Positions 42,807-45,745 of a stretch of 64,000 nucleotides of DNA are shown here, piece after piece. This DNA is from an uncultured Cohaesibacter sp. (GTDB lineage Bacteria; Pseudomonadota; Alphaproteobacteria; Rhizobiales; Cohaesibacteraceae): positions 829,001-893,000 of the forward strand of contig NZ_OY782764.1 in NCBI RefSeq assembly GCF_963678225.1, written 5' to 3'. A program made the translations under genes and the position numbers. The notes below the pieces were generated by a model that saw nothing but the letters and a program-made list of their open reading frames with translations, was not told where the DNA came from and ran no database searches. Position 1 is the stretch's first letter. Each line of letters begins with the position of its first letter.

Positions 42807-44420
42807 ATGTCCGTAGCTCCTCTTTCTGTTTCCGCGCCGGAAGTTGTTTCCGTCAAGCGCGCTCTCATCTCCGTTTCTGATAAAACCGGCATTGTCGACT
42901 TTGCCAAGGCCCTCGCCGATAAGGGCGTCGAGCTTGTCTCGACCGGCGGCACCTGCAAAGCCATTGCTGACGCTGGCATTCCGGTCAAAGACATCTCCGA
43001 GGTTACCGAATTCCCGGAAATCATGGATGGCCGCGTCAAGACCCTGCATCCCCGCGTGCATGGCGGTCTTTTGGGCGCCCGTTCGGTGGAAGCCCACAGC
43101 GCAGCAATGAAAGAGCATGGCATTCCGGAAATCGACCTGCTGGTGGTCAACCTCTATCCCTTCGAGGAAACCATCCTCAAGGGCGCCGACTATGCCACCA
43201 CCGTTGAAAATATCGACATCGGCGGCCCGGCCATGATCCGCGCTGCGGCAAAGAACCACGCTTTCGTCACCACCTTGGTTGATCCGGCCGACTATGCCGA
43301 GATCCTTGCCCAGATCGAGGAAAAGGGTGGCATCAGCTATGACGTGCGCAAGAAATTCGCTGCCAAGGCCTATGCCCGCACCGCCGCTTACGATGCAGCC
43401 ATCTCTGGCTGGTTTGCTGCAGAGCTGGAAATCGAATCTCCAACCTTCCGTGCCTTTGGTGGCGAGCTGGCTGAAGTGATGCGCTACGGCGAAAACCCGC
43501 ACCAGAAAGCCGGCTTCTACAAGACCGCCTCTTCCCGCCCCGGCGTTGCCACCGCAACCCAGGTTCAGGGCAAGCAGCTTTCCTACAACAACATCAACGA
43601 CACCGACGCCGCCTTCGAATTGGTCTGCGAGTTCGATCCGGCCATCTCTCCAGCCGTTGCCATCATCAAACATGCCAACCCATGCGGTGTGGCAATGGGC
43701 GCCACGCTCAAGGATGCCTATGTCAAGGCGCTGGCCTGTGATCCGGTTTCCGCATTTGGCGGCATCGTGGCACTGAACGGCACACTGGATGAAGCCGTCG
43801 CAGAAGAAATCACAAAGATCTTCGTTGAAGTGATCATCGCCCCCGATGCAACGGAAGGCGCCAAGGCGCTTGTTTCCAAAAAGAAGAACCTGCGCCTGCT
43901 GCTCACTGGTGGCCTTGCCGACCCACGCGAAGAAGGCGTGACCGTCAAATCCGTTTCCGGCGGTCTCTTGGTACAGAACCGGGACAACGGCAACATCGCC
44001 GATCTTGACCTGAAGGTAGCCACCGAGCGCCAGCCTTCCGAGCAGGAAATGGCCGACCTCAAATTCGCCTTCCAAGTTTGCAAGCATGTCAAATCCAACG
44101 CCATCATCTATGTGAAAGACGGCGCGACCGTCGGCATCGGTGCTGGCCAGATGAGCCGCGTGGATTCTGCCCGCATCGCAGCCCGCAAAGCTGAAGACGC
44201 AGCCGAAGCCGCAGGCATGACCGAACCACTCACAAAGGGATGCGTCGTGGCCTCCGATGCCTTCTTCCCCTTCGCCGATGGTCTTCTGGCAGCCGCCGAA
44301 GCCGGAGCAACTGCCGTTATCCAACCGGGCGGTTCCATGCGCGATCAGGAAGTCATCGATGCGGCCAACGAAGCCGGCCTTGCCATGGTCATGACCGGCA
44401 TGCGCCACTTCCGCCACTAG
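42807..44420 (+). CDS. purH: Bifunctional AICAR transformylase / IMP cyclohydrolase
   Basis: PurH performs the last two steps of IMP synthesis. The 537-residue protein has the IMP cyclohydrolase domain at the N-terminus ([39 protein letters not shown]-type [10 protein letters not shown]). The transformylase domain follows ([13 protein letters not shown], the catalytic [19 protein letters not shown], and the terminal GMRHFRH). AGGATAA precedes the ATG. A terminator follows. Confidence 0.98.
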
Positions 44421-44473
44421 GAACCGGCAGCGTCTCCTGCGCCAGAGATGCAGCCAGAGCCTGACCAATATAC

Positions 44474-44506
44474 AAAGCCCGGAGCGACCGTTTCGGGCTT
44501 TTTCCT
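44474..44506 (+). terminator. Rho-independent terminator of purH
   Basis: AAAGCCCG pairs with CGGGCTTT around a 12-base loop, followed by TTTCC, about 55 bases after the stop. Confidence 0.85.
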
Positions 44507-44887
44507 TGCTTGCACAGCGCCTCAAACAAGGAAAAAGCCTAACGTAAAAACACGTATCAACAGCTTGACATCAGGTCTGAAAGAAATTCTTGATACAGAA
44601 AGCTTGATAGTTCGCGTATAATAGGCAATTGGAAAAATTTTTAAATATCTGTTTTAAAAGACAAAATCCATGTAGATATGCAAAAATAGTCTGCCTAAAA
44701 AATAATCATCACCATAAATGCAATGCCAACAAAACAGCCATGCAATTTTGTGCGATGTAAAATCGAGAGCCATGAACTATATTCATGGTCAAGGAAGCGA
44801 TGAAGAGTTTGAAAGACAAAACCAAGTAAACGCTTCCGAAACGCAGTTGAAGATAAACAGCCACATAGCAACAAAGGAATGACACCG
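44507..44887. promoter_or_regulatory. A/T-rich region upstream of the DUF1127 gene, with CTTGAYA repeats
   Basis: About 380 A/T-rich bases with no gene. CTTGACA at 44564 and CTTGATA at 44589 and 44603 resemble -35 elements, and TATAAT is at 44617-44622. Spacing does not give a clean sigma-70 or RpoH promoter, but this is where the promoter of the DUF1127-sRNA unit should lie. In Rhodobacter the equivalent unit is driven by heat-shock-type sigma factors. Confidence 0.4.
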
Positions 44888-45043
44888 ATGATCAATACTG
44901 TTGTTGAAAACTATCGCCAGTGGCGCAACTACCGTGACACGGTTGATGAACTTGCCCGCCTGAGCAATCGCGATCTGGGCGAACTGGGAATTTCCCGCGG
45001 CGACATCACCGAAATCGCACGTGAAGCTGCTACTGCAAAATAA
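44888..45043 (+). CDS. DUF1127 small protein
   Basis: This 51-residue protein has the DUF1127 core: an N-terminal WRNYRDTVDELARLSNRDL helix leading to GELGISRGDI. AAGGA lies upstream of the ATG. Members in alphaproteobacteria (for example Agrobacterium and Rhodobacter CcaF1) bind RNA or affect phosphate and RNA metabolism. Three CCTCCTCCC-loop hairpins follow directly, which matches the Rhodobacter arrangement of a DUF1127 gene (RSP_6037/ccaF1) with CcsR sRNAs. CcaF1 is known to act on RNA turnover; the same role here is inferred. Confidence 0.9.
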   Translation: MINTVVENYRQWRNYRDTVDELARLSNRDLGELGISRGDITEIAREAATAK

Positions 45044-45049
45044 AAAAGT

Positions 45050-45079
45050 CTTTCGCTGACAGAAATGTCAAAGCGAAAG
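45050..45079 (+). other. Hairpin between the DUF1127 stop codon and the first cuckoo-type RNA
   Basis: CTTTCGCT-GACA pairs with TGTC-AA-AGCGAAAG around a GAAA tetraloop. It starts 7 bases after the stop. It has no CCTCCTCCC loop and no T-tract, so it may be a processing or stability element before the sRNAs. Confidence 0.55.
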
Positions 45080-45097
45080 CCACGAGTTTCAAGGAAT

Positions 45098-45125
45098 TCA
45101 GGCTTTTCCTCCTCCCAAAGCCTGA
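45098..45125 (+). ncRNA. CcsR/cuckoo-type sRNA hairpin 1
   Basis: TCAGGCTTT pairs perfectly with AAAGCCTGA (9 bp). The loop is TCCTCCTCCC, containing the conserved CCTCCTCCC (anti-Shine-Dalgarno) motif. It is the first of three such hairpins in tandem after the DUF1127 gene. The likely RNA is processed from the 3' UTR of that mRNA. Confidence 0.8.
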
Positions 45126-45127
45126 TG

Positions 45128-45159
45128 GATTCAAAACTACCTCCTCCCAGTTTTGAATC
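45128..45159 (+). ncRNA. CcsR/cuckoo-type sRNA hairpin 2
   Basis: GATTCAAAACT pairs perfectly with AGTTTTGAATC (11 bp) around the 10-base loop ACCTCCTCCC. The stem differs completely from hairpin 1 and hairpin 3, so the loop, not the stem, is conserved. Confidence 0.82.
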
Positions 45160-45163
45160 ACCT

Positions 45164-45204
45164 AACAAAGCCCTCCGGACCTCCTCCCCCGGAGGGTTTT
45201 TGTT
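45164..45204 (+). ncRNA. CcsR/cuckoo-type sRNA hairpin 3, also the transcription terminator
   Basis: CCCTCCGG pairs with CCGGAGGG around the same 10-base loop ACCTCCTCCC. The stem is extended by A/T pairs (AACAAAG with TTTTTGTT, one bulged base), so the right arm forms a T-tract and ends the whole DUF1127-sRNA unit. Confidence 0.82.
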
Positions 45205-45319
45205 ATCTGCTTGTCTTCGACACTCCCCAAATCTGCCCGACATTCCCGTCAAACGCTGCTTGCTTTCCGCATATTCTGCCCCATATCAAGGAGGCAAGAC
45301 ATTCTTGGGGGAAGGACGC

Positions 45320-45745
45320 ATGGCTGATAAACACTATTCCGAAGACGACATCGAACTGCTTCCGCCAGAGAAAGCAGCCGAGGATGAGCAGGGCCATCGC
45401 GATTCTTCCATGGCCAAAAAGGCTGCCAATGTGCGCAAGAAATTCTGGTCTGTGGTCAGAAAAGCAGCCAAACAGATGCCCATCATCGAGGATGTGGTCG
45501 CCGCCTATTATTGTGCATTTGATCCTGAGACGCCGGTCAAGGTACGCCTCACGCTGATCGGGGCGCTCGCCTATTTCGTTTTGCCACTGGATGCCATCCC
45601 CGACATGATTTTCGGCCTCGGCTTTGCCGACGACATCGCGCTGCTGACCTATGTCATCAAGACCGTACACGGCAACATCACCGACAAACACCGGCTGCGC
45701 GCCAAACAGGCCATGGCCGAGCATGATGTGCATGTAGAGCGCTAG
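45320..45745 (+). CDS. DUF1232 (YkvA-type) membrane protein
   Basis: This 141-residue protein has the DUF1232 core, CAFDPETPVKVRLTLIGALAYFVLPLDAIPD (hallmark YFVLPLDAIPD), followed by a small hydrophobic hairpin GFADDIALLTYVI. The N-terminal 70 residues are charged. GAAGGA precedes the ATG. The family's function is unknown. It lies just after the sRNA cluster but is probably a separate unit, since a terminator intervenes. Confidence 0.87.
   Translation: MADKHYSEDDIELLPPEKAAEDEQGHRDSSMAKKAANVRKKFWSVVRKAAKQMPIIEDVVAAYYCAFDPETPVKVRLTLIGALAYFVLPLDAIPDMIFGLGFADDIALLTYVIKTVHGNITDKHRLRAKQAMAEHDVHVER

Follow-up and report, generated by a model that had tools for sequence, protein, structure and literature searches.

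What kind of RNA lies behind the DUF1127 gene at this locus of a marine Cohaesibacter, what switches it on and what does it act on? The window, by which we mean the whole 64,000-nt stretch of DNA that was analysed, carries the gene and its hairpins in the setting listed here, with coordinates counted from the first letter of the window.

42807 to 44420: gene upstream of the unit, with Pfam AICARFT_IMPCHas and MGS matches, which we take to be purH
44731 to 44743, minus strand: LsrB/VtlR-type box that fits the published consensus GCAT-N3-TG-N3-T exactly (PMC7486931, PMC8844928)
44777 to 44782, plus strand: probable -10 element, CTATAT, conserved or nearly so in the alignment
44793 to 44837, plus strand: 5' leader stem-loop, GGAAGCG...CGCTTCC, from the alignment and the folding of single leaders
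44888 to 45043, plus strand: DUF1127 gene, 51 aa (Pfam PF06568, E 9.8e-12)
45050 to 45079, plus strand: fourth (spacer) hairpin, CTTTCGCT-loop-AGCGAAAG, just past the stop codon, from the fold, a genome search and family comparison
45093 to 45204, plus strand: ar14/cuckoo sRNA whose three hairpins carry anti-Shine-Dalgarno loops (Rfam RF02344 at 88.9 bits, matched from end to end)
45098 to 45125, plus strand: hairpin 1, loop TCCTCCTCCC, from the fold and the motif position
45128 to 45159, plus strand: hairpin 2, loop ACCTCCTCCC, from the fold and the motif position
45167 to 45200, plus strand: hairpin 3, loop ACCTCCTCCC, then a T-tract, a probable terminator, from the fold and the motif position
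Downstream of the unit: DUF1232 gene

Anatomy and family of the hairpin array

A sequence-only reading had described three tandem hairpins with nearly identical loops, a motif-free fourth hairpin before them, a third stem running into a T-tract and a DUF1127 gene directly upstream. The fold and a sequence check found all four hairpins in place with the loops as described, and the Pfam match (E 9.8e-12) identifies the upstream gene. Uninterrupted pairing covers 9, 11 and 8 base pairs in hairpins 1, 2 and 3. The third stem continues beyond a bulge, and TTTTTGTTAT, the T-tract that had been described, follows hairpin 3 directly. Only 2 nt separate hairpins 1 and 2. A 163-nt region reaches -59.4 kcal/mol compared with -33.8 (sd 3.9) for shuffled sequences (z -6.56), and 0/200 shuffles folded as well. 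The nonamer CCTCCTCCC occurs four times in the 64-kb window (0.62 expected; 0/100 shuffles reach four), and three of these copies lie in the array.

A terminator scan allowing loops of 3-8 nt reported, on the plus strand at hairpin 3, short alternative hairpins at 45180-45196 only. The same scan found hairpin 3 terminator-like on the minus strand too (45171-45196), and it may stop transcription from both sides.

The RNA matches the Rfam ar14 model (RF02344) at 88.9 bits against a gathering cut-off of 58.8, over model positions 1-123 of 123. The CcsR1 model (RF02791) reaches 27.4 bits at 45120-45205, below its gathering cut-off of 65.3, and this score rules out CcsR membership. A weak match to Rfam RNAI (25.7 bits, cut-off 47) was taken as chance. 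ar14 is described as the family of NfeR1, with three hairpins of differing stems that each carry the anti-Shine-Dalgarno motif CCUCCUCCC (PMC10746234). The RNA here likewise has three hairpins, CCUCCUCCC in every loop and variable stems. Short DUF1127 genes are reported to be associated with CcsR-like RNAs in what was named the CIN1 locus (PMC10253847), and this locus has the same layout, a short DUF1127 gene with CCUCCUCCC hairpins behind it. Judged by model score and by these traits, the RNA belongs to the ar14/cuckoo (NfeR1) family and is not a CcsR RNA in the strict sense. The earlier label of a CcsR/'cuckoo' cluster thus stands for the cuckoo-type anti-Shine-Dalgarno RNA in the CIN1 arrangement and fails for CcsR, whose model stays below its cut-off. 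RNA and gene are a pair of known kinds, and the association of DUF1127 with ar14 is already in print as the CIN1 locus.

These results bear on whether the locus could be a strictly CcsR-like cluster, driven by RpoH, in which the DUF1127 protein helps to excise every hairpin as a separate stress sRNA. Its gene order is that of ccaF1-CcsR1-4, and in R. sphaeroides CcaF1 is reported to assist RNase E in maturing CcsR (PMC10253847, PMC8625941). The CcsR1 score and the 2-nt gap between hairpins 1 and 2 both argue against such a cluster, which we consider unlikely. The related proposal that each hairpin is a separate sRNA found no support, given that narrow gap and the description of the relative NfeR1 as one RNA of 115 nt (PMC8844928).

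Linkage to DUF1127 and selection on the array

A covariance-model search of the genome for cuckoo RNAs, which had been proposed as a check, returned three ar14 loci over the cut-off, each with a DUF1127 gene upstream. There are four DUF1127 matches in this genome; the fourth is a longer paralogue (open frame of 179 aa) and lacks hairpins of this kind. The third DUF1127 copy (at L003), a 63-aa frame on the minus strand, has lost one residue and changed others in its DLGxLGISR part. This copy is at the Pfam limit (22.7 bits) and adjoins a degraded middle loop, so it is possibly decaying. At the window locus, an upstream in-frame ATG at 44879 would extend the DUF1127 frame to 54 aa. The nearest named relative in the best 80 of 109 loci, from Cohaesibacter marisflavi, is identical over 51 aa.

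Across the Cohaesibacteraceae, ar14 is present in 20/20 genomes with 40 matches over the cut-off, all but two of which (38/40) closely follow a DUF1127 gene. The order was represented by 249 genomes, including nine Cohaesibacteraceae, under stricter filters than in the family search. Here 78/249 genomes have an ar14 match at E 0.001 and 42/249 have one over the cut-off. Outside the family, a DUF1127 stop codon lies at most 450 nt upstream of 55 of the 81 over-cut-off matches, some of which overlap and every one of which falls in a fetched locus. The other 26 have no DUF1127 within 1200 nt upstream; 21 of these are from one family, and two (L163, L164) have only 788 and 145 nt of upstream sequence.

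Counted from the gene, a hairpin of this kind lies within 130 nt after the stop codon in 65/130 DUF1127 genes of the best 80 of 109 named loci, the 130 being those that passed score and edge filters, with genes near locus ends dropped. Four control motifs gave 0 to 5/130 in the same loci, and elsewhere in them such hairpins number 16 in 484,928 nt, both strands together. The other 65 genes have no hairpin within 130 nt, and some are first genes of a two-gene unit. The reversed motif CCCTCCTCC was rejected as a control: at 59/130 compared with 65/130 it is not independent, which we attribute to its overlapping the true motif at one mismatch.

At two loci of relatives (L031 in genome G016 and L032 in G004), three perfect hairpins stand with no DUF1127 frame within the fetched stretch. 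The flanks match those of L003, the third locus of this genome, and of L018, both of which keep DUF1127. On one side the match is a 206-to-228-aa frame, and the flanking gene on the other side is presumably uvrA. Because most relatives keep the gene, loss of DUF1127 at these two loci is the simplest reading. The protein is not gone from the cells, because both genomes keep another DUF1127-ar14 locus (L017, L016). A short inverted repeat, read by eye, lies directly before hairpin 1 at both loci. That the hairpins persist here with no linked DUF1127 is a further point against the strictly CcsR-like cluster, although the other locus could help in trans.

The same counts weigh on a role mainly in cis, in which the hairpins would act as a 3' stabiliser or terminator of the DUF1127 mRNA and a C-rich-RNA-binding protein would keep the loops fixed. 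Hairpin 3 with its T-tract is terminator-like, and the array ends the predicted mRNA. What DUF1127 proteins do is contested in print: CcaF1 is reported to bind RNA (PMC10253847), which would suit a cis role, and contact with PhoR is reported in A. tumefaciens (PMC12501420). However, no DUF1127 gene was found upstream in 26/81 ar14 matches outside the family (two with short upstream sequence) or in 2/40 inside it. A cis role also leaves unexplained why the loop mirrors the Shine-Dalgarno sequence, and we regard it as quite improbable.

The sequence-only reading had further held that the stems vary freely and that selection acts on the loop alone. We compared 24 distinct family copies over 126 columns, drawn from the 40 family ar14 matches and leaving out near-identical copies and later-fetched loci. 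Pairing is kept in 95.5% of 669 cells, and 12/28 pairs have changed on both sides. Neither measure was equalled in 500 shuffles; the structure was taken from the window sequence, which favours the paired-cell measure. When the partner was slid by one column, pairing fell to 61.5% or 52.8%. Pairwise identity among relatives is 0.77, 0.76 and 0.90 for stems 1 to 3, 0.94 for loop 2 and 0.905 for loop 3; the low value of 0.67 for loop 1 is attributed to shifted alignment. The TCCTCCC core occurs three times in 23/24 rows. The full nonamer occurs three times in 12 rows, twice in 8, once in 3 and never in 1. The stems differ from one another, are recognisable across relatives and covary, and therefore they are not free. 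By this alignment each array position has its own stem, kept partly by covariation, and selection acts on the structure as well as on the loop.

These data also bear on whether the array is decaying, or a chance product, with no function. The middle loop is indeed degraded in several copies next to the presumed uvrA. Set against this are the covariation (0/500 shuffles), the motif enrichment (four in 64 kb compared with 0.62 expected) and the presence of ar14 in 20/20 family genomes, which together make a functionless array very improbable.

Two Tabrizicola MAGs hold long arrays after a DUF1127 gene: 12 perfect-motif hairpins, 11 of them in one cluster (L115:1652-2291), and eight hairpins, six of them perfect (L114:964-1344); the known CcsR RNAs of R. 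sphaeroides number four. In Roseibium suaedae (L053:20-419), an array of eight cuckoo hairpins begins right at the start of the fetched locus and looks like a three-hairpin unit repeated; two further DUF1127-linked hairpins follow the array. Weak ar14-like matches (31-36 bits) in Cohaesibacter relatives (L127, L128, L130) are C-rich-loop hairpins directly behind other genes, with no DUF1127. The gene ahead was read as a solute-binding protein at L127 and as a chemotaxis receptor at L130, and L131 looks like a relative's copy of L130 on the other strand. Two motif hairpins with no DUF1127 (L129:1508 and L132:1507 onward) are common to two genomes, with an AT-rich promoter-like stretch before them and a G+C-rich inverted repeat after.

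Promoter, leader and spacer hairpin

On the plus strand the box reads A-N3-CA-N3-ATGC, within a longer conserved block at about 44716-44760. In the upstream regions of the family DUF1127 genes, this block ends in CAGCYATGCA or nearly so, and CTATAT or a variant follows about 33 nt later. Box position is nearly constant among close relatives. We saw no good -35 element; a poor -35 is common for activator-dependent promoters. Transcription is predicted to start near 44789, which would put the box at about -58 to -46. The same consensus is described at -61 to -49 in S. meliloti PabcR1 (PMC8844928). There is published confirmation of it in B. abortus and a proposal for A. tumefaciens (PMC7486931), and a CTATAT -10 is also described for the NfeR1 and AbcR1 promoters (PMC10746234, PMC8844928). 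The plus strand at 44400-45400 yielded no sigma-70-like promoter, so the RNA has none of this type to itself.

We counted the exact consensus within 260 nt upstream of whole units, with expectations from crude doublet shuffles; the units are related sequences, some from near-identical genomes. The box is present in 36/40 linked units of the Cohaesibacteraceae, the window included, compared with 2.0 expected. These 40 are distinct upstream regions, including units of genome G019 below the cut-off, and are not the same set as the 40 ar14 matches. It is also present in 32/57 linked units from the best 80 of 109 named loci outside the family (2.4 expected), in 28/39 linked units of the order sample (1.6 expected) and in 14/23 free-standing hairpin clusters of that sample (0.6 expected). 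Linked units with no exact box number 4/40, 25/57 (best 80 of 109 loci) and 11/39 in the family, the named loci outside it and the order sample. Unlinked DUF1127 units carry the box in 8/50 (2.3 expected) and 7/14 (0.2 expected) cases, so it is not specific to the RNA. Within the family the exact box was found in 0/2 unlinked DUF1127 units and 0/2 free-standing clusters. At L031 and L032 the promoter region is similar, and its core has one mismatch (CTGCTATGCA) and no exact consensus.

The CAGCYATGCA core was counted as well. It has 29 sites in the genome compared with 3 for the reversed pattern, and only the three ar14 loci among them fit a longer promoter matrix, which was trained on those loci. 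With one mismatch allowed, the core lies within 350 nt upstream of 38/44 linked clusters in the family (reversed core, 4), 20/58 in the order sample (reversed core, 0) and 53/69 in the best 80 of 109 named loci (reversed core, 1). Free-standing clusters of the order sample have it in 5/24 cases. Among DUF1127 genes of the best 80 of 109 named loci, the core is within 250 nt upstream of 43/65 linked and 22/65 unlinked genes.

A 296-aa LysR gene (Pfam HTH_1 and LysR_substrate; L231:456-1346) in the same genome adjoins an ar15/AbcR-like RNA, and the frame on its other side is presumably the end of trxB. The gene order reported for vtlR is the same (PMC7486931). That AbcR-like RNA (L231:1501-1637; C1:1215457) scores 33.2 bits with ar15, below the cut-off of 40, and contains CCTCCTCCC.

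The exact box in 36/40 family units points to LysR-type control, and the unit looks to be under redox-linked, LsrB/VtlR-like control rather than control of the heat-shock type. The control looks different from that in R. sphaeroides, because an RpoHI/RpoHII promoter is described there and a LysR-type box is found here. Box and CTATAT together argue against the RpoH-driven, CcsR-like cluster.

The leader stem-loop folds in many of 26 copies folded one by one, with z from -0.2 to -5.3; several z values are weak and some copies fold otherwise. Its arms change together, as GGAAGCG/CGCTTCC, GAAAGCG/CGCTTTC and CAACGGAGCG/CGCTTCGTTG. At L034 the leader stem-loop upstream of DUF1127 has CTCCTCCC in its loop, which places a hairpin of cuckoo-like form at the operon's 5' end. 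The leader stem-loop of the window contains a short frame, MKSLKDKTK (44800-44829), with AAGGA before it. An upstream ORF with attenuation is reported for the leader of an S. meliloti DUF1127 gene (PMC12218461); the frame here was dropped as a candidate, its conservation in the family alignment being too poor.

The spacer sequence CTTTCGCT-loop-AGCGAAAG has two sites genome-wide, both at ar14 loci. The hairpin precedes the ar14 hairpins in 23/53 family records examined, some of them from near-identical genomes. Its 8+8 stem is constant while 17 distinct loops, of 4 and 13-16 nt, are found, the reverse of the pattern in the ar14 hairpins. None was found in the fetched loci outside the family, and it is absent from the copies next to the presumed uvrA and from some other types. 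The variable spacing favours a hairpin in the RNA over a palindrome in the DNA. The hairpin may be a processing or protein-binding element.

Predicted targets, mechanism and known systems

Strong ribosome sites that would fit the loops exist in this genome. The pattern GGGAGGA-N4-11-ATG has 111 genome sites compared with 13 for the reversed pattern. Among the 100 of these 111 sites that were listed, 17 carry GGGAGGAG; 11 of the 17 start a frame of at least 120 aa and 6 do not. Ten of those 11 frames were scanned for families and nine matched: FGGY sugar kinase, malate/lactate dehydrogenase, response regulator, acyl-CoA mutase, crotonyl-CoA carboxylase/reductase, DctP, TctC, ABC permease and universal stress protein. 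The transport and carbon-metabolism genes among these predicted targets agree with reported NfeR1 and AbcR targets (PMC10746234, PMC8844928). Two FGGY kinase gene copies are widely separated on one contig (L264, G000 C2:16953; L275, C2:2180249). They agree in their strong ribosome site and in their first 40 residues; the family scan covered L264.

Predicted loop duplexes have energies of -17.0 to -22.8 at the 17 GGGAGGAG sites and of -4.4 to -5.1 at the three linked DUF1127 starts of the genome. We do not claim that DUF1127 ribosome sites avoid their own RNA, as the linked/unlinked control is mixed. Duplexes of -10 or lower occur at 4/49 linked and 18/62 unlinked DUF1127 starts in the best 80 of 109 named loci, at 4/32 and 0/16 in the order sample and at 0/21 and 0/1 in the Cohaesibacteraceae. 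Among window genes they occur at 10/50 when the first start is taken and at 16/50 for the best of four.

We favour, as the likely reading, one LysR-controlled operon that yields a DUF1127 mRNA and a terminating ar14 silencer RNA that blocks ribosome sites of the GGGAGGA type. It builds on the anatomy, the family match, the covariation, the linkage, a conserved operator and the ribosome sites found that would fit the loops; LsrB/VtlR binding, co-transcription, processing and silencing are the steps it predicts. An LsrB/VtlR-type activator would bind 44731-44743 and start a transcript near 44789. This transcript would consist of the 5' stem-loop, the DUF1127 frame, the stem-conserved spacer hairpin and the terminating ar14/cuckoo RNA, and DUF1127 would be translated from it. 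The ar14 part of about 110 nt would be released by a cut in the unpaired segment that separates hairpin 1 from the spacer hairpin. Its three redundant C-rich loops would pair with the strong Shine-Dalgarno sequences (GGGAGGA type) of other mRNAs and block ribosome entry, with mostly transport and carbon-metabolism genes as targets.

Published relatives offer precedents for both ends of this operon. VtlR binds the atu1667 promoter by EMSA, and atu1667 is described as the orthologue of two VtlR-activated Brucella small-protein genes (PMC7486931). LsrB activates NfeR1, whose loops mediate the silencing of ntrB and ABC-transporter mRNAs, and a loop-mutant NfeR1 no longer represses ntrB (PMC10746234). 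The loop mutant is also a point against a mainly cis role. By analogy with NfeR1, the RNA here probably occupies the ribosome-binding sites of other genes and so keeps them silent.

Within its published family this is an ordinary locus. It is useful because it connects two topics, the control of DUF1127 genes by LsrB/VtlR and the anti-Shine-Dalgarno cuckoo/NfeR1 RNAs. In our literature search no paper linked the LsrB/VtlR box with a DUF1127-cuckoo operon, and none dealt with Cohaesibacter and sRNA together. The link may be in print in central papers of the field, namely Reinkensmeier and Giegerich 2015, del Val 2012, Robledo 2017, Sheehan 2015 and Eisfeld 2021. Separately, VtlR with DUF1127 genes (PMC12595884) and LsrB with NfeR1 (PMC10746234) are both in print.

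Whether the VtlR target atu1667 acts as protein or as RNA was left open by the 2020 paper (PMC7486931). Loci such as this one make the question testable, because units with both halves exist alongside units with the RNA half alone in two relatives. As a tentative proposal, somewhat less probable than not on our own estimate, the DUF1127-ar14 operon may be the ancestral LsrB/VtlR output across the Hyphomicrobiales, with small-protein mRNA and silencer in one transcript. Free-standing NfeR1-type RNAs would then have arisen by loss of the protein frame, as at the presumed uvrA locus of the two Cohaesibacter relatives. If so, part of the effects ascribed to LsrB/VtlR-activated DUF1127 'small proteins' would be the work of 3' RNAs.

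Among known systems, NfeR1 of S. meliloti, the ar14 type member, shares the three CCUCCUCCC-loop hairpins, the LsrB-type box upstream and the CTATAT -10. Published accounts treat NfeR1 as an sRNA gene that has a promoter to itself, whereas the RNA here sits behind a DUF1127 gene. The box here is also closer to the predicted start, at about -58 to -46 compared with -72 to -60 for the NfeR1 motif (PMC10746234). AbcR (ar15) has anti-Shine-Dalgarno motifs, LsrB/VtlR control and transport targets in common with the locus (PMC7486931, PMC8844928), but it is a separate Rfam family, described as Hfq-dependent and with two distinct motifs in S. meliloti (PMC8844928). The atu1667 gene of Agrobacterium and three Brucella DUF1127 genes are reported to be directly activated by VtlR through the same consensus (PMC7486931). 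Compared by their descriptions, these are treated as protein genes or as a 'putative sRNA', and the parts of the source consulted make no mention of a 3' hairpin array. The ccaF1-CcsR1-4 locus of R. sphaeroides has a DUF1127 gene, RNAs with the same motif after it and an end terminator, and Rfam titles CcsR1 (RF02791) 'Conserved CCUCCUCCC motif stress-induced RNA 1'; its promoter is of the RpoHI/RpoHII type (PMC10253847), in contrast to the LysR-type box and CTATAT here. The CIN1/cuckoo arrangement (Reinkensmeier and Giegerich 2015, via PMC10253847, PMC10746234), known from Alphaproteobacteria as CCUCCUCCC hairpins behind a short DUF1127 gene, shows, as judged through these citing papers, no difference in kind from the locus described here.
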